NCBI RefSeq assembly: GCF_039536245.1
Contig: NZ_BAAAYN010000006.1
Location: 186,001 to 250,000 of the forward strand
Length of the DNA: 64,000 bases
Direction: 5' to 3'
Source of the DNA: Cryptosporangium minutisporangium
Lineage (GTDB): Bacteria; Actinomycetota; Actinomycetes; Mycobacteriales; Cryptosporangiaceae
In this document: positions 6,035 to 15,818 of the stretch, one piece after another
Position numbering within the stretch: the first letter of the stretch is position 1
How the letters are laid out: each line of letters opens with the position of its first letter
Notes under the pieces: generated by a model
Told to the model about the DNA's origin: nothing
The model's input: only the letters and a program-made list of their open reading frames with translations
The model's database searches: none
Translations under genes and position numbers: made by a program

Positions 6035-6487
6035 TCAGCGGATCCACGGCGTGACGAAGCCGCCGCACCGGAGTCGGAATGCGGCCCCCGACGGGCTGTA
6101 CGCGTCGATCGCGAAGTACCCCGCCTCGTCCACCTCGGCCCGGACCGGCTCGGCACCGACCGTCTCCACCACGACGTGGGTCGGCCGACCGGCCTCGACC
6201 ACCACGTACCCACGGAGCGCGTCCGGATCGGACTCCACGTCCACCTCCACCGTCAAACCGGGCGCTTCGAACGCGAGGCTGCGCCGCGCGCCCCGCCCGG
6301 ACCGGATCAGCGGCACCGAGCCGGCCGCCGCCGAGTCGGAGGTGAGCGTGGCGAGACCCGCGGCGAAATCCCGCCAGGCGAACAGGCTCCGACCTGCCGC
6401 CGCCACCGACGGCGGGACGCTCGCCTCCTCAGCCAGCGCTCGGCCGAGTTCGGTCAGCAACTCGTCGTCGGTCCACTCGGTCGACAT
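6035..6487 (-). CDS. Conserved actinobacterial accessory protein of sigma/CHAT/subtilase loci
   Basis: 150 residues. It begins with an acidic helix (TDDELLTELGRAL) and has a central beta-rich segment (SLAFEAPGLTVEVDV). The C-terminal half resembles a small carboxypeptidase-regulatory-like beta domain ending in FVTPWIR. From memory, proteins of this architecture recur beside ECF-like sigma factors and CHAT peptidases in actinomycetes; they have no assigned biochemical activity. It follows the sigma gene by 9 bases, the third gene of the minus-strand operon that starts at the subtilase. An anti-sigma or substrate-adaptor role is inference. Confidence 0.65.
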   Translation of the reverse strand: MSTEWTDDELLTELGRALAEEASVPPSVAAAGRSLFAWRDFAAGLATLTSDSAAAGSVPLIRSGRGARRSLAFEAPGLTVEVDVESDPDALRGYVVVEAGRPTHVVVETVGAEPVRAEVDEAGYFAIDAYSPSGAAFRLRCGGFVTPWIR

Positions 6488-6496
6488 CCCGGCTCC

Positions 6497-7075
6497 TCAC
6501 GCCCCGCCGGTGGGCGCAGCCAGCAGCGCCGCCAGCTCCGGCGCCCGGCGCAGGTCGTCCAGACAGCGGGCCCGGATCGGCCCGATGCTGCCGATCGCGA
6601 GACCTAGCTCCGCACTGATCTGGACGTACGACGGCCGAGGCTCGGTGAGCAACAGTCCGAGCAGCCGCCGGCAGCGCTCGCCCAGCTGTCGGAACGCCGC
6701 CCGCATCGCCGCCCGTCGCTCGGCGCGCAGTAGTTCGTCATCCAGGTCGTCGAGGTCAGCGCCTGGCTCCACGAGGAGGGGCGCTTCGCGCCGGGCCCGG
6801 CCCGACGACACCCGCGCGTGCTGCAGGCACTCGCGGCGTGTCGTCGTGATCAGCCAGCCGGGCAGAGCGGCCGGGGCGGCGAGGCCCGGGAGATGCTCCA
6901 GCAGCCGCAACCAGACCACCTGGACGACGTCGTCGGTGTCGGTGGTGGACAGGCCAAAGCCCCGGCAGACCGCCCAGAGCAACGATGCGTACCGGTCGAC
7001 GATCGCGTTCCACGCGCGCTCATCGCCCGCGAGCGCCGCCTCGACCAACGCCTGCACCGGATGCTCGGTCGGCAT
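6497..7075 (-). CDS. ECF-like RNA polymerase sigma factor
   Basis: 192 residues from the ATG at 7075, whose A overlaps the last base of the subtilase stop (TGATG), implying translational coupling. Region 2 is visible early (DERAWNAIVDRYASLLWAV, then DDVVQVVWLRLLEHL). Region 4 is visible at the end (PSYVQISAELGLAIGSIGPI). There is no C-terminal SnoaL extension. Sigma factors of this group sit next to subtilases and CHAT peptidases in actinomycetes. It is probably produced with, and perhaps released or controlled by, the protease encoded upstream. The target promoter is unknown. Confidence 0.85.
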   Translation of the reverse strand: MPTEHPVQALVEAALAGDERAWNAIVDRYASLLWAVCRGFGLSTTDTDDVVQVVWLRLLEHLPGLAAPAALPGWLITTTRRECLQHARVSSGRARREAPLLVEPGADLDDLDDELLRAERRAAMRAAFRQLGERCRRLLGLLLTEPRPSYVQISAELGLAIGSIGPIRARCLDDLRRAPELAALLAAPTGGA

Positions 7076-8235
7076 CAGACCTCCAGCACGAACGGACGGA
7101 TGTCCGGCCCTGCTTCCTCGAGCAGCCGGTCCCGCGCGGCGAACGCGTCGATCCGCTCGGTCACGATCAGCCGGGCGATCGCCCCGGTGACGTTCGCGGC
7201 GGCGAACGAGCTCCCGGACCACCGCGCGTAGCCGGAGCGGAACGCCGTCGGTGCGGTGTCGGCGGAGAGTGCGACCGCCGGAGGGAACGGGCCGACGACG
7301 TCGACGCCGGGGGCGAGCAGGTCCAGCCAGGGCGCCCGCGGAGTGGTCGGCGCGATCTCACCGTCGGTCCCGGCGGCACCGACTGCGGTCACGTCGCCGA
7401 ACGCAGCCGGGTACACGGCGGCGGGCATCGTGCTCTCGCCGTGGTTGCCGGCCGCCGCGACCAGGACCACCGAACCACTCAGCCGATCCAGCGCTCGACG
7501 CAGAGCCAGCGGCGGCGACCCGTCGGTCAGACAACCGAACGACATGTTGAGCACCGAGACGTCGTCGCGGAGGAACGCCAACAGTCGGTTCGCGACCTCC
7601 CACGAGGTATTGGCGCCGTCGGGGTGGGGGACGAGGACGGTGCGGCAGACCAGCCGGGCGCTCGGTTCGCGGCGCAGGATCGTGCCGGCGACGATCGTTG
7701 CGTGCCCGGGTGCCTTCGTCAGGAACGGCCCCGGACCGATCAGCGGCTGACCGAGATACCGGCCGGCGAGGTCGGGATGGTCGTAGACCCGCGCGTCCGC
7801 GACGCCGATCCGCGGTCCGTCCGGGTAACCGGCGCCGACCAGCCGGACGACGGCGGGGGCCGCCTCCTCGGCGGGATCGCCGACCGCGATCTTGACGTGC
7901 GGGTTGAGCTCTACGGCACCGATGTCATGGTCCCGGTCGATCACCGGGTTCCACCCGCCGTACGCCGATCGAGCGAGCCCGCGGAGCACGGCGATCAGCA
8001 CGTCCACGTCCTCCTCCGGCGGCTCCCTGGGAACCAGGGGAGCGGTCGCCGGATCGGTGCGCAGCGACGCGACCGCCTTCTCGACCCCGGTCAGCGACCA
8101 TCGGACGAGCCCGAGGCCCGACCCGGTGTCGTCCGTCCCGACGACGAGATGGTCGGCAAGAGGAGGGGTGTCCGCGATGAGACGCGCGACGGTGCGCGCG
8201 TCACGAAGGTCCACCAGCAACTCGGCCTGATTCAT
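7075..8235 (-). CDS. Cytoplasmic S8 subtilisin-like protease
   Basis: 386 residues. After an N-terminal region of about 135 residues, the subtilase triad is readable: Asp147 in IGVADARVYDHPDL, His178 in GHATIVAG, oxyanion Asn264 in AAGNHG, and Ser343 in SGSSFAAANVTG. The usual GTSMAxP proline is replaced. There is no signal peptide or membrane anchor, so it should act inside the cell. It heads the operon with the sigma factor and accessory protein and diverges from the TPR-CHAT gene 109 bases away. The natural reading is a two-protease regulatory module, but the substrate is unknown. Confidence 0.86.
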   Translation of the reverse strand: MNQAELLVDLRDARTVARLIADTPPLADHLVVGTDDTGSGLGLVRWSLTGVEKAVASLRTDPATAPLVPREPPEEDVDVLIAVLRGLARSAYGGWNPVIDRDHDIGAVELNPHVKIAVGDPAEEAAPAVVRLVGAGYPDGPRIGVADARVYDHPDLAGRYLGQPLIGPGPFLTKAPGHATIVAGTILRREPSARLVCRTVLVPHPDGANTSWEVANRLLAFLRDDVSVLNMSFGCLTDGSPPLALRRALDRLSGSVVLVAAAGNHGESTMPAAVYPAAFGDVTAVGAAGTDGEIAPTTPRAPWLDLLAPGVDVVGPFPPAVALSADTAPTAFRSGYARWSGSSFAAANVTGAIARLIVTERIDAFAARDRLLEEAGPDIRPFVLEV

Positions 8236-8262
8236 GCTGCCCCCAGGGTTACGCTCGGACGG

Positions 8263-8277
8263 CTGTATGGCCTACAG
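8263..8277. promoter_or_regulatory. Inverted repeat in the subtilase/CHAT divergent promoter
   Basis: CTGTA-TGGCC-TACAG is a perfect 5-5-5 inverted repeat between the divergent subtilase and CHAT genes. A related element, TGATACAG, follows at 8296-8303, and its reverse complement CTGTATCA occurs at 11014-11021 upstream of the SARP gene. A shared regulator is possible but unproven. Confidence 0.35.
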
Positions 8278-8344
8278 AGGAACGTCGTGGCAGCGTGATA
8301 CAGCGCGTCCCGAGCCGCCCCACCGTTCACCTTGGACCTCGCCG

Positions 8345-10999
8345 ATGCGCTCCACATCATTCGACCAGGCAGTCGACGCCCTGCGTCTGGCCGAAGCGGA
8401 TCCTGGTCGTTCGGTCGTCGCCGCGACGGCCGTGGCCCGGCGGGCCCGCCGCCAGGGCGAGCACGCCGCCGCGTCGGGGGCCGAGCGCGAGTACGGCATC
8501 GCCGCGCTGCACCTGCGGAACACCGACGTCGCGACGCGCCACCTGCGTGCGGCCGTGGTCCTGGGACGCCGGGCCGGAGAGGTCTCGCTGGTGACGGAGG
8601 CTCGGCTCCGGCTGGCGGCCGTCCTCAACCTGCGCGGGCGCGTCCGCACGGCGCTCCGGGAGATCGAAGCCGCCGCGGCCGAGGCGACCGGGACCGACCG
8701 CGCCCGGGCGCTGGCCCAGCACGGTGCGATCCTGCTCGAGCTCGGCCGGCTCGACGACGCGCGGGGGAGCCTCGATGTCGCGGTGCCCGCGCTGCGTGCC
8801 GCCGGTGACCGCATGTGGCTCAAGCGTGCGCTCGCCAACCGCGGCCTGATCAACGGACGCCGCTTCCGGTTCGACGCGGCGGAGGCCGACCTCACCGAGT
8901 CGCTGCGGATCAACCGCGCGCTGGGCGTCGACCTGTCGGTCGCCTTCCTCCTGCAGAACCTCGGCTGGGTCGACACCCTCCGCGGGGACGTCCCGCGCGC
9001 GCTGCACCGGCTCGACGACGCCGAAGCCCAGCTGCGCAAGCTCGGCGCGCAAGTCGGCCTGCTGCTGGAGGATCGTGCGCTGCTCCTGCTCTCCGCGGGG
9101 ATGACCGGGGAGGCCAGAGCAACGTCGCAAGCATCGGTCGCTGCGCTGGAGCGTGAGCGCCAGCACGTGGCGCTCCCGCGCGTCCGCGTCCTGCTCGCGC
9201 AGGCCGCACTCGCCGAGAGCAGCCCGGACGAAGCCCTGGCCCAGGCCCGGAGGGCGCTCGCGGAATCGGTACGTCAGCGCCGCCCGGAGTGGGCGTCGTT
9301 CGCCCGCTACGTCGTCGCCGCCGCACGAGCGGCCGACGCCGGCGAACGCACCCGAATCTCGGTCGCTGCGCTGCAGCGCACGGCCGTCGCCCTGGACGCC
9401 GCCGGGTGGCCGGACGTCGCGGTGCACGCGTGGCTCCTCACCGCGGAGTTGGCGTTCGAACGCGGACGCACCGACCGAGGCGTCGCAGCGCTGCGCACCG
9501 CGAGCCGGGCCAGGCAGCGGCGTCCGGCCGCCACCCGGACGCTGGGCTGGTACGCCGAGGCCCAGTTGCGGCTACGTCAGGGGCGCCGGCCGGCCGCGCT
9601 GCGGGCAGCCCGCGCCGGCCTGCGCGTGCTCGACGAGCACCGGGCCCGCCTCGGGGCAGCGGACCTCCGCGCCCACAGCGCCGCTCAGCGCGGGGCCCTC
9701 GCCGGGCTCGGTCTGCGGCTGGCCATCGGCGGTGGCCGTGCGTCCGACGTGTTCGCGTGGGCCGAGCGGGGACGCGCCAGCCATCTCCTCCTGCCCCCGC
9801 TCCGTCCGCTCGACGAGGGCGACGACGCAGTCGACCTTGCCGCGCTCCGTGCGGCCGTGGCCGACGTCGATCGGCTCCGGAACGAGGGCGTCGACCCGGC
9901 TCCGGCGCTGCGCCGCCAAGAAGCGCTCGAACGCCGGATCCGGGATCGGGCCCGCCGCCGGCCGGGCAGCACGTCCGCCGAGCCGCTGCCGCCGGTGCGC
10001 GACGCCACGCTGCGCGCTGCGCTCGCCGGATCGACGCTGGTCGAGTACATCGTGTCGGACGGTGCCCTGGGCGCGGTGGTCGTCGCGCCCGCTCGGACGA
10101 CGTGGCACGCGCTGGGCCCGGTCGCACCGATCCGCGGGCTCGTCGATCGGCTGCCGTTCGCGGTGCATCGGTTGGCCTCCGGCCGGGCCACGGTGCTGCC
10201 GTTGCTGCGGGACGCGGCATCCAGGCTGGACCGGCTGCTGCTGGTACCGCTCGCCGCTCACCTCGGGGACGGCCCGGTCGTGGTCGTACCGACCGGACCG
10301 CTGCACTCGTTGCCCTGGTCGTTGCTGCCTTCCTGCGCCGGCCGACCGGTCACGGTGGCGCCCTCCGCGACGCTGTGGCACGCGGCCTCGGCTCCTGTCC
10401 GTTCGTCCGCCGCGCCCTCCGACGCCGTCGTCGTCGCCGGGCCCGGCCTGCCCGGGGCGGAGGACGAAGTGGACGCGGTGGCGGCGATCCACCGCACCAC
10501 GCCCCTGTCCGGTCCCGACGCCCAGGTCGAGACGACGCTCCGGCGGCTGGCCGGCGCCGACGTCGCCCACCTCGCGGCTCACGGCACCATCCACCGGGAG
10601 CACCCCCTGTTCTCCTCGGTTCTGCTCGCCGACGGCCCGCTCACCTGCTACGACCTCGAACGGGTGCGCCCGCTGCCCCGTCTGGTCGTGCTCGCCGGCT
10701 GTGAGACCGGCCGCCACGGCGTCCCAGCCGGTGACGAGCTGATCGGACTGGCGGCGACGCTGCTGGCACGCGGCACCGTCCAGGTCGTCGCCTCCGTCCT
10801 GCCGATCCCCGACGCGGCAACGGCGCCGCTGATGACGTTGTTCCACGAGCGGCTGGCGGCCGGTGCGTCGTCGGCCGTTGCGTTGGCCGAAGCCCAGACC
10901 GCAGTCGCGGGCGAGGGCGGACCCGCTCTGGCAGCTGCTGCCGGTTTCGTCTGCATCGGTGGCGAGTTCCGACTGCGGTCGGCGACCGCAGTCCACTGA
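8345..10999 (+). CDS. TPR-CHAT domain caspase-like peptidase
   Basis: 884 residues from the ATG at 8345; upstream in-frame ATGs at 8234 and 8267 lie in the promoter region and add low-complexity sequence. Roughly the first 500 residues are alpha-helical TPR-type repeats (for example GRLDDARGSLDVAVPALRAAG). The C-terminal ~270 residues are a CHAT domain, a caspase-HetF-type cysteine protease fold. The catalytic dyad is intact: His746 in HLAAHGT and Cys786 in LAGCETG. CHAT proteins act as regulated proteases, for instance in gasdermin and Craspase systems. The TPRs probably sense or bind a partner. It is cytoplasmic and divergent from the subtilase-sigma operon. Confidence 0.9.
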   Translation: MRSTSFDQAVDALRLAEADPGRSVVAATAVARRARRQGEHAAASGAEREYGIAALHLRNTDVATRHLRAAVVLGRRAGEVSLVTEARLRLAAVLNLRGRVRTALREIEAAAAEATGTDRARALAQHGAILLELGRLDDARGSLDVAVPALRAAGDRMWLKRALANRGLINGRRFRFDAAEADLTESLRINRALGVDLSVAFLLQNLGWVDTLRGDVPRALHRLDDAEAQLRKLGAQVGLLLEDRALLLLSAGMTGEARATSQASVAALERERQHVALPRVRVLLAQAALAESSPDEALAQARRALAESVRQRRPEWASFARYVVAAARAADAGERTRISVAALQRTAVALDAAGWPDVAVHAWLLTAELAFERGRTDRGVAALRTASRARQRRPAATRTLGWYAEAQLRLRQGRRPAALRAARAGLRVLDEHRARLGAADLRAHSAAQRGALAGLGLRLAIGGGRASDVFAWAERGRASHLLLPPLRPLDEGDDAVDLAALRAAVADVDRLRNEGVDPAPALRRQEALERRIRDRARRRPGSTSAEPLPPVRDATLRAALAGSTLVEYIVSDGALGAVVVAPARTTWHALGPVAPIRGLVDRLPFAVHRLASGRATVLPLLRDAASRLDRLLLVPLAAHLGDGPVVVVPTGPLHSLPWSLLPSCAGRPVTVAPSATLWHAASAPVRSSAAPSDAVVVAGPGLPGAEDEVDAVAAIHRTTPLSGPDAQVETTLRRLAGADVAHLAAHGTIHREHPLFSSVLLADGPLTCYDLERVRPLPRLVVLAGCETGRHGVPAGDELIGLAATLLARGTVQVVASVLPIPDAATAPLMTLFHERLAAGASSAVALAEAQTAVAGEGGPALAAAAGFVCIGGEFRLRSATAVH
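10971..10993 (+). terminator. Hairpin at the end of the CHAT gene
   Basis: A perfect 10-base stem (10971-10980 with 10984-10993) and a GGC loop ends four bases before the CHAT stop codon. Its position suggests a terminator or processing signal separating CHAT from the SARP gene. The stem also encodes the last residues of the protein. Confidence 0.5.
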
Positions 11000-11093: not shown

Positions 11094-11876
11094 ATGCACG
11101 TACGCCTGCTGGGGCCGGTCGGGATCGAGACCGCGCAGGCCAGGTTGGTCGTCGGTGGACCGAGAGCCCAGGCGGTGGTCGCCGTCCTGGCGGTGCGGGC
11201 CGGCGAGGTGGTGACCGCGGACTGGCTGATCGACCAGATCTGGGGCGCACAGCCACCGCGGTCGGCCCGCGGTTCGCTCCAGGCTTACGTGTCGCGACTC
11301 CGAGCGGCCGGCGGCTCATCCACCAAGGTGCTGTTGCCTCCGCATCCGCGCGGCTACCGTCTCGACCCGGCGACGGCCAGGATCGACGCCGGTGACTTCG
11401 AACGGCACGCGGCGGCGGCGCTCGTCGCCGCCCGCGCCGGCCGGTGGTGGGAAGCGCTCCGGGCCGCGCAGGACGCCCAGCGCCTGTGGCGGGGGGAGCC
11501 GTTCACCGGGATCGACGCCCCGCTCCTGGCGGTCGAGCGGCACCGGCTGGACGAGATCCGCCGGAACAACCGGCTGACCGAGCTGCGTGCCGACCTGGAA
11601 CTGGCCGGTGCGGCCCAGGTGATCGGGGCGCTGCGGAGCCTCACCACCGACGATCCGTGGGACGAGCGGCCCTGGCAGCTGCTCGTGCTCGCGCTCTACC
11701 GCGGTTCCCGCCAGACCGAGGCTCTCCAGACGGCACGACGGGCCCGCCGGATGCTCGCCGAGGAGCACGGCCTCGATCCGACGCCCGCGCTCGTCCGCCT
11801 CGAGCAACGCATCCTCGCGCACGATCCGGCGCTGTGGGGCGCCGCAGGAGCGCCCGGACGCGAGCTGGCCGGATGA
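11094..11876 (+). CDS. SARP-family (AfsR/BTAD) transcriptional activator
   Basis: 260 residues from the ATG at 11094, which follows AGAGGGGG. The N-terminal ~90 residues form an OmpR-type winged helix (VVTADWLIDQIWG, then GSLQAYVSRLR). Residues ~97-245 form the bacterial transcriptional activator domain (DPWDERPWQLLVLALYRGSRQTEAL). It is a small SARP without NB-ARC or TPR extensions. SARPs activate secondary-metabolite genes by binding heptameric direct repeats. A pair of CTGCAA(C/G) heptamers with a 4-base spacer lies 28 bases downstream, just before the PatG-like protease gene, which makes that gene the likely target. Confidence 0.9.
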   Translation: MHVRLLGPVGIETAQARLVVGGPRAQAVVAVLAVRAGEVVTADWLIDQIWGAQPPRSARGSLQAYVSRLRAAGGSSTKVLLPPHPRGYRLDPATARIDAGDFERHAAAALVAARAGRWWEALRAAQDAQRLWRGEPFTGIDAPLLAVERHRLDEIRRNNRLTELRADLELAGAAQVIGALRSLTTDDPWDERPWQLLVLALYRGSRQTEALQTARRARRMLAEEHGLDPTPALVRLEQRILAHDPALWGAAGAPGRELAG

Positions 11877-11968: not shown

Positions 11969-13972
11969 GTGGACCTAGGACGAGCAGACGACGTGATCGG
12001 CCGGGCGGCAGCCGGGCCGCTCGGCGACGTGTGCGTCGCGGTTCTCGACGGGCCGGTCGACGTTGCTCATCCCGCGCTGGCCGGCGCCGATCTGCGAGTG
12101 ATCGAGAGCCTGGTGCCCAACCGGCCGGGTCCAGGGCCGATGTCGGCGCACGGAACGCACGTGGCCAGCCTGATCTTCGGACGCCCGGGCTCACCCGTCC
12201 GCGGCATCGCACCGCACAGCCGCGGCCTGATCATCCCGGTGTTCGCCGACGACGGCAGCCCGCTGACGCAATGGGACCTGGCACGCGCGATCGAGATCGC
12301 GGTCCGGGAAGGCGCGGACGTGATCAACGTCAGCGGTGGTGAGCGCAGCGCGACCGGCGCGCCGGACGACCTGCTCGCCCGTGCACTGCGGCTCTGCGAG
12401 GACAGCGGCGTGCTGGTCGTCGCGGCGACCGGGAACGACGGCCTCGACGCGGTACAAGTTCCGGCGGCGGTTCCGTCGGTGCTCGCGGTCGGCGCCTGTG
12501 CCGCCGACGGGAAGCCGCTCCCGACCAACAATTGGGGGGAGCCGTACCGGACCAACGGCGTACTGGCCCCGGGGCACGGGTTGGTCGGCGCCGTGCCCGG
12601 GGGCGGCACCGCAGCGCGGTCCGGCAGCAGCTTCGCGGCGCCGGTCGTCACCGGCGCCGCCGCGCTCCTGCTCGCGGCCGCCCGAGGCGCCGGGGCCGAC
12701 CCGACCCCGGCCGCGATCCGCGACGTCGTCCTGCGCACCGCCGCCGACGCTCCGGCGGACGCCGCCGACCACGCGCGCTATCTAGAGGGCCTCCTCGACC
12801 TCGGGGCGGCCTACGAGGCGATCGCCGGGACGCCCGGCCGCCCCGCCGTGAGATCTGTCGAAGGAGATGAGGAATACATGTCGATCACCGATGCCGTCCC
12901 GACCGGAGCACCCGCGCCCGAGGCGGCCGCGCCGGCGACGGGAGTCGTCGCGGCCTGCGCCGACGCCGGGGCGCAGGCGACCTGCGGCTGCACGACCGCG
13001 GCACCCGGCTACGTCTACGCGATCGGCTCGATCGGCTGGGACTTCGGCACGGAGGCCAGGCGGGACGGCTTCATCCAGCAGATGGACGGGCAGGTCGCCC
13101 CGGACGGACGGGAGCTCCCGGGCAACCCGTACGACCCGGCGCAGCTCGCCGCCTACCTCCGGGAGAACCCGTGGGTGTCGGACAAGGTCATCTGGACGGT
13201 CACGCTGGAGGGCCGGACGCCGATCTACGCGCTGGAGGCGGAGGTCCCGTTCGGGATGGACTGGGGCGGCCCGCGCCCGCCCGCGGAGAACGGCGAACCG
13301 TACGACGTGCCGTTCTACCCGCCGGTCTCGGTCGTCCACAAGACGTTCCGCGACGCGATCCTCGGGCAGACCCTCCGCCCGGACAACGCGGACTACGTGG
13401 CCCGGGTGTCGATCCCCGGCACGCTGACCAACCGCACCGTGCGGCTCTTCACCGGACAGCGCGTTCCGGTCGTACAGGTGCACGCCCGCGGCCTCTACAC
13501 GTGGAACGAGGCCGTCCTCGTCAACAGCCTGGTCGAGCAGATCAACTCCGACCGCGCGACGCGGGACGCCACGCCGGTCGACGAGGCCCGGGTGCGGATG
13601 CTGATCCAGGCGTTCCTCGACAAGGTCTACTACCAGTTCCGAAACTTGGGCCAGAGCGGGCCGGACCGGGCGCTGAACTACGCCGCGACCAACGCGTTCG
13701 AGCTGACCCAGGCGCTGGCCAACGGCTTCCTGTCCGGTCGTCTCGTCCCGCACAGCCGGAACGAACCCGAACCGCTCTACGCGCTCGACGACATCACGGT
13801 GGCCAAGAGCCGCTACGAGCGTCCCGACTCGGAGTCCTACGACGTGACGCTCACGTTCATGGACCCGGAGAACGACCGGCAGGCCCGCGTCGCCTACCTG
13901 ATCACCGTCGACGTGAGCGACGTCCTGCCGGTCAGCCTCGACTCCCCCCGTCAGTTCATCATCGGCCGTTAG
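11969..13972 (+). CDS. S8 subtilase fused to a PatG-type cyanobactin maturation C-terminal domain
   Basis: 667 residues from GTG 11969, chosen for its GAGGGG site and because it starts about 25 residues before the catalytic Asp, as in PatA/PatG. An ATG at 11873 overlapping the SARP stop is the alternative. Subtilase domain (1-310): Asp27 in VLDGPVDVAHP, His61 in SAHGTHVASLIFG, oxyanion Asn156, Ser221 in SGSSFAAPVVTG; the LDGPVD form is characteristic of PatA/PatG proteases. A Cys-rich linker (CADAGAQATCGC) leads into the second domain (~345-667), which opens with VYAIGSIGWDFGTEARRD, matching the domain of unknown function at the C-terminus of PatG. PatG cleaves and macrocyclises precursor peptides, so the small genes directly downstream are the natural candidate substrates. 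Any cyclase activity is inference. Confidence 0.88.
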   Translation: MDLGRADDVIGRAAAGPLGDVCVAVLDGPVDVAHPALAGADLRVIESLVPNRPGPGPMSAHGTHVASLIFGRPGSPVRGIAPHSRGLIIPVFADDGSPLTQWDLARAIEIAVREGADVINVSGGERSATGAPDDLLARALRLCEDSGVLVVAATGNDGLDAVQVPAAVPSVLAVGACAADGKPLPTNNWGEPYRTNGVLAPGHGLVGAVPGGGTAARSGSSFAAPVVTGAAALLLAAARGAGADPTPAAIRDVVLRTAADAPADAADHARYLEGLLDLGAAYEAIAGTPGRPAVRSVEGDEEYMSITDAVPTGAPAPEAAAPATGVVAACADAGAQATCGCTTAAPGYVYAIGSIGWDFGTEARRDGFIQQMDGQVAPDGRELPGNPYDPAQLAAYLRENPWVSDKVIWTVTLEGRTPIYALEAEVPFGMDWGGPRPPAENGEPYDVPFYPPVSVVHKTFRDAILGQTLRPDNADYVARVSIPGTLTNRTVRLFTGQRVPVVQVHARGLYTWNEAVLVNSLVEQINSDRATRDATPVDEARVRMLIQAFLDKVYYQFRNLGQSGPDRALNYAATNAFELTQALANGFLSGRLVPHSRNEPEPLYALDDITVAKSRYERPDSESYDVTLTFMDPENDRQARVAYLITVDVSDVLPVSLDSPRQFIIGR

Positions 13973-13981
13973 GAGAACACG

Positions 13982-14170
13982 ATGACCAGCCCATCGATCC
14001 CGAGGCTGCGACCCCCGTCGCCGGTCCGCGGCGTGACGCGTGAGGGAAGCGCGGCACGCCCCGGGGACGGTCCCGGCGTCCGCGCCGCCGCCGTCGACTG
14101 CAGCAAGCTGCGGGGCCTCGCCCGGTCCCTCTGCTACAAGGCGCACTCCGCTCCGACGCTCCCGTTCTGA
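13982..14170 (+). CDS. Small peptide 1, candidate precursor of the PatG-like protease
   Basis: 62 residues; starts 9 bases after the protease stop with an AGGAG site. Residues 9-20 read LRPPSPVRGVTR, which aligns with similar segments in the next two small proteins. A Gly/Pro/Ala-rich middle follows, then a C-terminal segment with two cysteines ten residues apart (DCSKLRGLARSLCYKA) and a tail ending LPF. No family is recognised. The position directly behind the protease, strong ribosome site and leader-like motif make it a plausible precursor peptide. The alternative is a small effector or immunity peptide. Confidence 0.62.
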   Translation: MTSPSIPRLRPPSPVRGVTREGSAARPGDGPGVRAAAVDCSKLRGLARSLCYKAHSAPTLPF

Positions 14171-14215: not shown

Positions 14216-14425
14216 ATGAGTGCAACCAACAGCTCCCTTCGCCTGCCGCGCCAGACCCGCGGTATCCACCGTGGCCCCGGCAGCACCGCGGCCGCCGCCG
14301 GCGGCGTCCAGGCCGCAGGTCTCGTAGCCGACCTGGGCCAAACCTTCGACGACTGGACCGGAACGTTCATCCCGCCCGGCGTCCTCGACACGATCGGCGG
14401 CTGGCTCGGCTCGATCTTCAAGTGA
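14216..14425 (+). CDS. Small peptide 2, candidate precursor or amphipathic peptide
   Basis: 69 residues with an AAAGGA ribosome site. Residues 8-19 are LRLPRQTRGIHR, the second copy of the shared N-terminal motif. An Ala/Gly-rich stretch (STAAAAGG) follows. The C-terminal half is hydrophobic and aromatic, ending DTIGGWLGSIFK, which could fold as an amphipathic membrane-active helix. Such layouts occur in bacteriocin-like and ribosomally made peptides. It has no cysteine, unlike peptide 1, so the two could act as a pair. A strong hairpin follows its stop codon. Function is inferred. Confidence 0.62.
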   Translation: MSATNSSLRLPRQTRGIHRGPGSTAAAAGGVQAAGLVADLGQTFDDWTGTFIPPGVLDTIGGWLGSIFK

Positions 14426-14514: not shown

Positions 14515-14703
14515 ATGCCACTGAAACTGCCCGTCCAGCGGTCGGTGGACCGCTCGGCCCGGATCGAACCCTTCACGATTCCCGATTTCGACGTGGCGGG
14601 CGGCGTCGTCGTGGTCACCGGGCTACGGCTGCTCTACGGACCGTACCCCGGCGACCCCGCCCACCTGCTGCGCCCGCTCTGCCTCGGACGGCCACGATGC
14701 TGA
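14515..14703 (+). CDS. Small peptide 3, translationally coupled to the PGB protein
   Basis: 62 residues with a GAGAGG site. It opens with MPLKLPVQRSVDR, a third version of the shared L[RK]LP...R.[IV].R motif. A hydrophobic Gly/Val segment (VAGGVVVVTGL) follows, then a Pro-rich end with two cysteines (PLCLGRPRC). Its last codons overlap the next start codon (ATGCTGA, 14697-14703), so the two genes are probably translated together and the frame is genuinely used. No homologue is recognised. It may be a third substrate, or a chaperone or immunity peptide for the protein encoded next. Confidence 0.6.
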   Translation: MPLKLPVQRSVDRSARIEPFTIPDFDVAGGVVVVTGLRLLYGPYPGDPAHLLRPLCLGRPRC

Positions 14704-15818
14704 CGTCCACGCTCTTCGCCGGGGTCGCCGATCTGGCCGCCGTCGCCGCCGGCCAGCGGACGATCCGCGCGGGGGAGTCCTCGGCGTCGGTCGCGCTGAT
14801 CCAGCAGGCGTTGGTCACTCTCGGATTCGCGCTGCCGAGCGGGGGCGCGGACGGCATCTTCGGCGGTGAGACCGGCACCGTCGTGTCCGCGTTCAAGGTC
14901 GACCGTGGACTGTCCCCGGCCGATCCGGTCGTCGGCAAGGGCACGATGGCCCGGCTGGACCGGGAACTCTCGTTCCTCGACGGCGTAGTGGATCCGACCT
15001 ACGCGACGGACCGGAAGCTGCTCCGCAGCGAACCGTTCACCGCCGGGGTGCTCGATGCCGTCCTGCCCGACCTCGACATCGGGCAGGCGCTCCTGGACAC
15101 GTTGGAGCTCGGCGACAAGCTCTGCTTCTCGATGTCGATGGCGATCCTGGACGCTCCTCAGGTGGCGAGCTTCGTCGGCCGGTTCGTCGAGCCCAAGATC
15201 GAGCAGGATTACTGCAAACAGACCGGGCCCTGCACCGCCGACGACTTCTTCGACACGGTGAACAGCCCGACGCCGTACACGGACTTCCTCCGTGCGCACA
15301 ACCCGACGATCAGCCCGGCGGTCGTCACTGCGGTCGGCTCCCGGTCGCGGCCGGACATCATCAGCCACCGGCCGGGTGCCACCCCGATGTGGTACGAGAT
15401 CAAACCGCTCTCGCCCGGCGGGGTCCGGGACGGGCTGGCCAAGGGCATCGCGCTGAAGCAGATCTACAAGGACAACGGGTTCCCCTACAAGCCGGGCACG
15501 ACCTACCGGCCGAGCAGCGAGATCGAGCTGGGTCACTTCCTCACCCCGCAGGGCGAGGACATCGAGGTGTTCCTCGAGGTGCGACGGCTGTTGCCGGGGT
15601 TGCTCTTCTACCGGCTGTGCCTGCGCGGCGACTACGTCCAGTTCCTCAACCGCGTGCGGGTCGTCGCCGGACTGCTCGCGATCCTGGCCGCGCTCGCGCC
15701 CGAACTGCTGGCGGCCGGTGCTGCGGCCGAGGAGGTGACCGCGTTCCTCGCGCTGCTCCGCGCGGCGGCCACGGCGCTGGGCCTCGGCAGCCTGCCGTCA
15801 CTCGTTCCCGTTCCCTGA
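14697..15818 (+). CDS. Peptidoglycan-binding-like protein with PD-(D/E)xK-like centre and hydrophobic tail
   Basis: 373 residues. Residues ~22-92 form a peptidoglycan-binding type 1 repeat (SVALIQQALVTLGF, then DGIFGGETGTVVSAF). The middle contains RPD220IISH, then WYE234IK236, spaced like the D...ExK core of restriction-endonuclease-fold nucleases seen in polymorphic toxins. The last ~55 residues are strongly hydrophobic (LLAILAALAPELLAAG). No signal peptide is evident. It could be a self-targeting or secreted effector whose activity is restrained by its neighbours, but this is inference; nuclease activity is not shown. Its 3' end overlaps the convergent SDR gene by 21 bases. Confidence 0.68.
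   Translation: MLTSTLFAGVADLAAVAAGQRTIRAGESSASVALIQQALVTLGFALPSGGADGIFGGETGTVVSAFKVDRGLSPADPVVGKGTMARLDRELSFLDGVVDPTYATDRKLLRSEPFTAGVLDAVLPDLDIGQALLDTLELGDKLCFSMSMAILDAPQVASFVGRFVEPKIEQDYCKQTGPCTADDFFDTVNSPTPYTDFLRAHNPTISPAVVTAVGSRSRPDIISHRPGATPMWYEIKPLSPGGVRDGLAKGIALKQIYKDNGFPYKPGTTYRPSSEIELGHFLTPQGEDIEVFLEVRRLLPGLLFYRLCLRGDYVQFLNRVRVVAGLLAILAALAPELLAAGAAAEEVTAFLALLRAAATALGLGSLPSLVPVP

Follow-up and report, generated by a model that had tools for sequence, protein, structure and literature searches.

Cyanobactin enzymes are usually regarded as one set, whose task is to produce heterocyclic or cyclic peptides. In this set, PatA combines an S8 subtilase with the PatG_D and PatG_C domains, and the precursors of the heterocyclase-free cyanobactin pathways carry an LPxQxxPVxR tag. 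PatA is reported to cut after a GLEAS motif, yet extremely slowly in vitro (PMC4282754), and the site of PatA-like enzymes is G(L/V)E(A/P)S, or recognition sequence II (RSII) (PMC10885120). PatA is stated to carry the C-terminal domain of unknown function (DUF) in PMC4259220, where the role of this conserved domain is an open question. Some cyanobactin pathways have neither heterocyclase nor oxidase genes (PMC6162287), and at the SCAB_66631 locus of Streptomyces scabies a PatG-DUF protein lies beside four short peptides (PMC7369419). Here, we describe a locus in a 64,000-nucleotide stretch of Cryptosporangium minutisporangium DNA (the window; position 1 is its first letter), in which a PatA/PatG-family protease gene (11969–13972, plus strand) is followed by three small genes. 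Judging from the sequences, we consider it quite probable that this locus is a PatA-only relative of the cyanobactin pathways, in which the protein would remove the leaders of the neighbouring peptides and the products would be linear.

The window resembles the heterocyclase-free cyanobactin pathways (sphaerocyclamide, anacyclamide-like) in its PatA-type protease, the same C-terminal domain, an RSII-like site, a variable core and the lack of a YcaO protein. It differs from them in having no PatG macrocyclase, no C-terminal recognition sequence and, on a weak test, no prenyltransferase. Moreover, the cores of window-type loci are mostly longer, hydrophobic or cysteine-containing, and several precursor classes are mixed in one locus. 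The protease domain matched the PatA chains of the patellamide pathway at 264.6–267.9 bits; unlike PatA, window-like proteins have a linker with a substrate-like site before a cysteine cluster, a different precursor set and no partner PatG. The S. scabies locus is also a case of a PatG-DUF protein beside short peptides in an actinomycete, but its homology is confined to the DUF (PMC7369419). The protease family, the heterocyclase-free pathways (PMC6162287) and the S. scabies arrangement (PMC7369419) were already known. The titles, abstracts and passages covered by our literature search, outside which most subscription journals lay, held no description of this locus type or of PatA self-cleavage, and we did not meet there the PatA-only layout, the mixed tagged precursors, their co-occurrence with the protease or the linker site.

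The protease and its relatives

The open reading frame (ORF) at 11969–13972 has a GTG start and encodes 667 amino acids, read here as a PatA-type leader protease composed of a subtilase, a cysteine-containing linker and the PatG_D/PatG_C region (12986–13969, plus strand). Pfam models for Peptidase_S8 (E 3.1e-32), PatG_C (E 2.4e-30) and PatG_D (E 2.4e-7; 31.6 bits against a cut-off of 27) matched the protein when the query was extended upstream to 11870, and the scan found no oxidase or other further domain. The NCBIfam model TIGR03895, "PatA/PatG family cyanobactin maturation protease", scored 534.7 bits, above its cut-off of 421.05. The C-terminal half matched the sequence of the solved PatG DUF (4uvq) at E 1.7e-45 in phmmer. 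AlphaFold prediction of this domain from six sequences gave a mean predicted local distance difference test score (pLDDT) of 38.8; the likeness to the PatG DUF is carried by sequence homology to 4uvq. The pair of domains reported by an earlier note on this DNA is therefore confirmed as real and not due to chance, and the likeness of the C-terminal region to the PatG DUF, on which that note had staked its claim, holds at the level of sequence.

Next, we compared the subtilase half with PatA and PatG proteins. It scored 264.6–269.2 bits to PatA/PagA chains and 127–134.6 bits to PatG macrocyclase chains, and it aligned to PatA over residues 20 to 287 with two single-residue gaps. The predicted catalytic Asp, His and Ser segments (LDGPVD, HGTHV and GSSFAAP) were ungapped against PatA at these points. 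Since the score was about twice as high to PatA/PagA as to the PatG macrocyclase, the protease half is, on sequence grounds, PatA-like (leader-removing) and not PatG-like (macrocyclising). A tree built from 37 subtilase domains grouped the window protein with 13 other actinobacterial proteases (support 95/97). Together with PatA-type proteins of cyanobacteria, PagA, the proteases of Streptomyces two-protease loci and that of locus L073, they fell in a cluster of 24 rows (95/89), inside which the tree does not settle the branching order. A second subtilase of the window (7075–8235, minus strand) sat on a long branch, and its place was unsure.

The earlier note had called the protein PatG-type, a label that is not supported in its cyclising sense: the bit scores favour PatA/PagA about twofold, no further Pfam domain is present and the precursors carry no C-terminal macrocyclisation signature. 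A phylogeny of the kind which that note had proposed places the window protein with cyanobacterial PatA and PagA. Its statement that a separate PatA is missing must be turned around, for the protein itself is the PatA counterpart, and what is missing is a PatG macrocyclase; with a single PatG_C match in the whole genome, a second (G) protease is absent. The distribution of PatG_C in actinobacteria is patchy. It was found in one of four genomes of the genus and in 4 of 396 genomes of the phylum, one of which (G026) is of another type. Relatives occur on six Streptomyces plasmid records; none was found in 50,697 phage records at E 1e-20, nor in viral contigs by a pattern search that detects close relatives only.

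Small tagged genes and the linker site

The three small peptide genes mentioned by the earlier note are all present downstream of the protease on the plus strand, each with ribosome-binding-site-like motifs and with third-position guanine-cytosine fractions of 0.89, 0.86 and 0.84, compared with 0.91 for the protease gene. The first (13982–14170) encodes a type-1 precursor candidate of 62 residues, in which a degenerate tag and GVRAA are followed by CSKLRGLARSLCY; within it the alignment shows the conserved two-cysteine segment CSKLRGLARSLC (14099–14134, plus strand). The second (14216–14425) encodes a type-2 precursor candidate of 69 residues with the tag LRLPRQTRGIHR, the site GGVQAA and a 35-residue core. 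The third (14515–14703) encodes a type-3 small protein of 62 residues with the tag LKLPVQRSVDR, no cleavage motif and GDPA near its C-terminus. These small ORFs belong to conserved families, a point that the earlier note had missed.

The families were delimited in 19 actinobacterial loci whose protease is window-like, one of them being the window; loci recorded more than once (L006 = L051 and L010 = L067 = L076) were each counted once. Small genes of types 1–3 lay downstream of the protease in 18 of the 19 loci, while the remaining one (L071) held protease fragments only and no such genes. Peptides were chosen by eye for a tag and/or site, or for the two-cysteine motif, dropping overlapping out-of-frame and chance ORFs; one identical duplicate in L076 was excluded, and the type-2 peptide of L073 was used in its longer form. 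The 68 peptides used (18 of type 1, 40 of type 2 and 10 of type 3) were all read back from their own loci. Their tag has the cyanobactin-precursor-like form LPxQxxPVxR, and two of the three classes carry a motif that resembles the PatA site (GVEAN, GVEAS, GVEPS, GLEAA and others). Type 1 is encoded by one gene per locus in the 18 loci and consists of the tag, a GVEAA-like motif and then the two-cysteine segment, with the consensus CxxLxGPARQMCY; both cysteines and the intervening arginine were invariant in a 14-row alignment. Type-2 genes number one to four per locus; their products join a conserved leader (such as LQMPQQAPPIDR...SGVEAN) to variable, mostly hydrophobic C-termini of 9–37 residues. 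Ten of the 18 loci have a recognisable type-3 gene, whose product has the tag and lacks the cleavage motif; the better conserved type-3 proteins end in RGWxCxPxxGCxWxGL. A Streptomyces plasmid locus (L076, 12731–13717) has four tandem type-2 genes, two of which encode the same protein; the leaders are 93–100% identical and the cores differ, as expected from recent duplication.

Type 2 has the conserved leader and variable core that serve as a criterion for ribosomally synthesized and post-translationally modified peptides. In type-2 pairs from the same locus, mean identity was 0.74 upstream of the site and 0.40 downstream, and it was higher upstream in 29 of 31 pairs, with the site-splitting pattern widened after inspection of the data to include GAAAS, GVAAS, GGAGAS, DGAAAS and GAQAN. 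The 40 sites took the forms GAAAS (11), GVEAN (9), GVEAD (4), GVEPS (2) and GVEAA (2), plus twelve single forms. Mean hydrophobicity was 0.50 for cores and -0.13 for leaders. The helical hydrophobic moment fell in the top 5% of a core's own shuffles for 15 of 39 distinct cores (mean z 1.5), where about two were expected, related cores in this count not being independent. The cores run to the C-terminus, and no C-terminal recognition sequence of the RSIII type (AYDG, AGDDAE) was found.

To relate the precursors to the protease across genomes, sequence profiles were built from 14 of the 18 type-1 peptides (A1), 17 of the 40 type-2 peptides (A2) and 9 of the 10 type-3 peptides (A4, with the window's left out). 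Among 396 actinobacteria, the type-1 profile matched at E<=1e-17 only in G000, G328 and G131, the three genomes with a window-like protease; the E-value in the window's own genome was 5.5e-18, the window row being part of A1. The next match, in a fourth genome, had an E-value of 5.9e-4 and two stops inside. Among 392 Streptomyces genomes, the type-2 profile matched at E<=1e-8 in nine (G131, G402, G494, G533, G549, G581, G598, G612 and G695), within 2 kb of a PatG_C match. These same nine are the genomes with a window-like protease among the 32 that have PatG_C, although only the C-terminal half of the protease lies on the contig in G494 and the protease is read in several frames in G612. When the threshold was relaxed to E<=0.01, 42 Streptomyces genomes matched, the best of the other 33 at 1.4e-4. 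A tenth Streptomyces genome, G435 (locus L071), has protease fragments and no precursors.

Similar arrangements were found on cyanobacterial plasmids, the only records from which cyanobacterial relatives were sampled. Three PatA-type genes (L079, L081 and L082) have no second protease nearby and have a small ORF downstream. In Gloeocapsa PCC 7428 (L079) this ORF encodes MKLPVQAAPVQR...GIKPS and a cysteine-rich core, in Nostoc cf. commune (L081) MNLPIQSKPIFR...GITPS and a cysteine-rich core, and in Acaryochloris marina (L082) MRIPNQSIGQIR...GGVQPS and a four-cysteine core, with a looser tag; this last peptide was missed by the pattern search and found by reading the ORFs. Cyanobactin precursor models gave E-values of 0.044 and 0.059 for the L079 and L081 peptides, both below the cut-off, and no match for the L082 peptide.

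The cysteine-rich linker that the earlier note had singled out is present as well (GVVAACADAGAQATCGC, from 12941), and it contains GVVAA|C (12941–12958, plus strand), similar to the motif at which the adjacent precursors would be cut. Between protease and PatG_D, the linker is variable in length and often rich in proline and alanine. The pattern G[VIL]x[PA][SAN]C occurred within 120 residues of the domain in 15 of 17 window-like proteases, usually near more cysteines, and nowhere else in these 17 proteins; L045, which has no in-frame domain start, and L071 are left out of this count. Shuffling of the linkers predicts 0.09 of 17, a figure that serves as a guide only, because we settled the pattern with the linkers already in view and because the proteins share ancestry; a wider first pattern also matched elsewhere in some linkers. 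The two proteases lacking the site are L055, which is cut by a contig end, and L075. Cyanobacterial linkers have AVTPS before ECATCGG (L079) and AISPS before ACSCGEG (L082). In the two-protease locus L039, whose precursors carry GAELS, one linker has VELS before AGGCSCGG. The site was absent from the second L039 protease and from the PatA-type protein that the cyanobactin cluster of Gloeothece (L080) encodes, which counts against its generality. It may be a self-processing site or a pseudosubstrate, and it offers a checkable account of the long cysteine-rich join between protease and domain.

Proposed pathway and rival explanations

Each precursor would carry a docking tag (LPxQxxPVxR) at its N-terminal end, followed by a spacer, a PatA-type motif (G-V/L/I/A-x-A/P-A/S/N/D) and, C-terminally, the core. 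Cutting after the motif, the PatA-type subtilase would free two kinds of core. One is a conserved two-cysteine peptide, in which a disulfide loop could arise; the other comprises short peptides, one to four in each locus, that are mostly hydrophobic and in many cases amphipathic. The locus would contribute neither heterocyclase nor oxidase nor macrocyclase, so that the cores would stay linear. The type-3 protein, with its tag and no cleavage motif, is somewhat PatB-like and probably accessory. The protease itself probably cuts at the linker site beside its cysteine cluster, unless the linker acts as a pseudosubstrate. That the peptides are membrane-active and exported is a first guess, about as likely as not. 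The substrate type would differ from that of the cyanobactin enzymes, as the earlier note had supposed.

The tag is common to types 1, 2 and 3 and, in form, to PatB of the Gloeothece cluster (MRLPKLAPPVKR). Because the tag-bearing loci have a PatG_D/PatG_C protein in common, this region is a candidate receptor for the tag. Another peptide of the form LPxQxxPVxR is the cyanobactin peptide NILPQQGQPVIR, the start of the PatE leader. The study that used it (PMC5108345) combined it with the oxidase ThcOx, to which evidence suggested that it may bind, and this counts against a receptor role of PatG_D/PatG_C.

Several points weigh against the proposed pathway. Docking by the C-terminal domain is called into question by nuclear magnetic resonance (NMR) data, in which the isolated PatG DUF caused no shift of the PatE' spectrum and showed no binding (PMC4259220). 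The exact G(L/V)E(A/P)S consensus is present in only 3 of 40 type-2 peptides (GVEPS in two and GVEAS in one); most of the other sites are close variants, such as GVEAN, GVEAD and GAAAS, and one clade has GGAAAS in place of GVEAS. Since few sites fit the published consensus exactly, our confidence is slightly lowered. The window itself has a degenerate type-1 tag (LRPPSPVRGVTR) and the site forms GVRAA and GVQAA, and its 35-residue core, taken over the full length, is not amphipathic (z -1.5). Among close homologues, the ratio of nonsynonymous to synonymous differences (pN/pS) came to about 0.7, as the mean over 15 type-1 pairs and as the median over 78 type-2 pairs, indicating weak purifying selection only. 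NCBIfam models matched none of six actinobacterial peptides at E<=1 and none of the window's three at 0.1. The Nostoc protease gene (L081) lacks the stretch that holds the catalytic serine, and no exporter was identified. Finally, the recall of the profiles is circular, because their rows come from some of the searched genomes; the absence of precursors in genomes without this protease type is not circular.

The short, hydrophobic and often amphipathic cores would also suit a suicide or defence device, in which a protease switched on by stress or infection releases peptides that permeabilise the producer's own membrane. This is consistent with the self-processing-like linker site, with two proteins encoded upstream in the window (a CHAT-TPR protein and a second subtilase), and with the annotation around four plasmid loci, which shows no transporter but comes from incomplete gene tables. 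However, neither of these two window proteins has a counterpart at E 1e-6 in the related loci, and the conserved type-1 cores and cysteine-rich cyanobacterial cores look more like secreted products, so that we regard such a device as unlikely. A signalling role, in which the cores are sensed by the producer and a BTAD regulator belongs to the circuit, would account for the conserved type-1 core and for the BTAD regulator near the protease in 14 loci. It is made quite unlikely by the strong variation of type-2 cores within one locus, and no receptor gene was identified, none having been searched for. It is very unlikely that the small ORFs encode uncleaved tag-bearing cofactors with hydrophobic ends as membrane anchors: type 3 does have a tag and no site, and the start of PatB is also tag-like, but the site resembles the published PatA consensus and marks the boundary between a conserved and a variable part in 29 of the 31 pairs. 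Most improbable is that the 11969–13972 protein is a PatG-type macrocyclase making head-to-tail cyclic peptides, since its membership of TIGR03895 and the existence of cyanobactin pathways that lack both heterocyclase and oxidase genes (PMC6162287) are outweighed by the about twofold higher score to PatA/PagA, the single PatG_C gene and cores that lack AYDG or AGDDAE, unlike the FAGDDAE-ending precursors of two Streptomyces two-protease loci.

A leader protease and DUF with a tag and site, and with no ring enzyme in the locus, separate the tag from heterocyclisation and macrocyclisation. The locus also offers a direct test of what the conserved C-terminal domain does. Together, the loci point to a family of short peptides, probably linear and so far little known, in both actinobacteria and cyanobacteria; these peptides are left unnamed by the Pfam and NCBIfam models tried. 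A wider proposal, which we find slightly easier to doubt than to accept, is that Actinomycetota and Cyanobacteria share a distinct system in which one PatA-type protease, processing itself at the substrate-like linker site, serves mixed tagged precursors, PatG_D/PatG_C being the LPxQxxPVxR receptor. The precursor set would then comprise amphipathic linear peptides, disulfide-type peptides and PatB-like accessories, and the canonical cyanobactin pathways would be one elaboration of a simpler tag-and-cut system.

Neighbouring genes and related loci

No YcaO gene lies in the window, as the earlier note had stated: the four YcaO matches of the genome are on contigs 4 and 23 (G000:C4:251551-264276 and C23:449396-450397), none being on the window's contig 6. 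Three of these matches are strong, and a separate YcaO-dependent peptide cluster is possible there. A single query, the YcaO of a thiazole/oxazole-modified microcin (TOMM) from Gloeothece, found none in the other loci, those on cyanobacterial plasmids included. No PatF-type prenyltransferase matched in the genome, although this search was also silent in the controls and so shows little. In tblastn, one PatB query and one PatC query found nothing below E 0.1 either in the window or in the other group-A loci, and no modifying enzyme beyond cleavage was identified.

Directly upstream of the protease is a SARP/BTAD-type regulator (11094–11876, plus strand; Pfam BTAD and Trans_reg_C, with the start chosen by eye). 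Neighbourhood clustering was dominated by close Streptomyces loci and by overlapping or antisense frames; targeted tblastn was used instead. In this search, a BTAD-type regulator related to that of the plasmid locus L076 was near the protease in 14 distinct loci, none of which matched the window SARP. A segment akin to the C-terminal part of the L075 M35 protein, read by Pfam as hemopexin repeats, lay 1.3–1.9 kb downstream of the protease in eight loci and was not found in the window by targeted tblastn. The second subtilase, the CHAT-TPR protein (about 8300–10999, plus strand) and a peptidoglycan-binding protein (14697–15818, plus strand) were left out of the system because they have no counterpart in related loci at E 1e-6. 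At 6035–10999, a sigma-70-family (ECF-like) factor and the subtilase, both on the minus strand, face the TPR-CHAT protein and possibly form a separate stress or conflict module. In the 14697–15818 protein, the peptidoglycan-binding domain is followed by a D...ExK-like region (PDIISHRPGATPMWYEIK) and a hydrophobic tail; we take this pattern to be perhaps that of a nuclease-type effector.

The type-3 proteins and the PatB/AcyB/McaB family (TIGR04220) are alike in a tag-like start, a DPA-like segment and, in part, C-terminal cysteine and tryptophan. The profile comparison was not significant (hhalign probability 0.7%, E 0.077), and hmmsearch gave 5.5e-5 for the best (L045) of 10 type-3 proteins in a 10-sequence set. 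NCBIfam models matched none of four type-3 proteins at E<=5.

In group C (loci among L041–L070, 21 examined), PatG_C and the protease are products of separate genes, and most of these loci have a distant subtilase close by. The small proteins of this group include cysteine peptides that start with IPGF (one with LPGF) in six loci and LPGF-containing proteins in nine. The SCAB_66631 locus may correspond to this group of separate PatG_C proteins and IPGF or LPGF peptides, and group C possibly represents further peptide systems using the same domain. Two other Streptomyces loci, L039 (G482) and L040 (G496), have two tandem PatA/PatG-type proteases with PatB-like and PatC-like genes. The L039 PatB-like protein scored 84.6 bits to TIGR04220 (cut-off 55), and the PatC-like genes gave tblastn E-values of 1.8e-5 and 9.2e-6 in L039/L040. 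Their precursors combine a MIPNLAPPVTR-like tag with GAELS and end in FAGDDAE; one of the L039 peptides matched TIGR04446 at E 4.9e-4, under the cut-off. This looks like a true cyanobactin cluster in Streptomyces.

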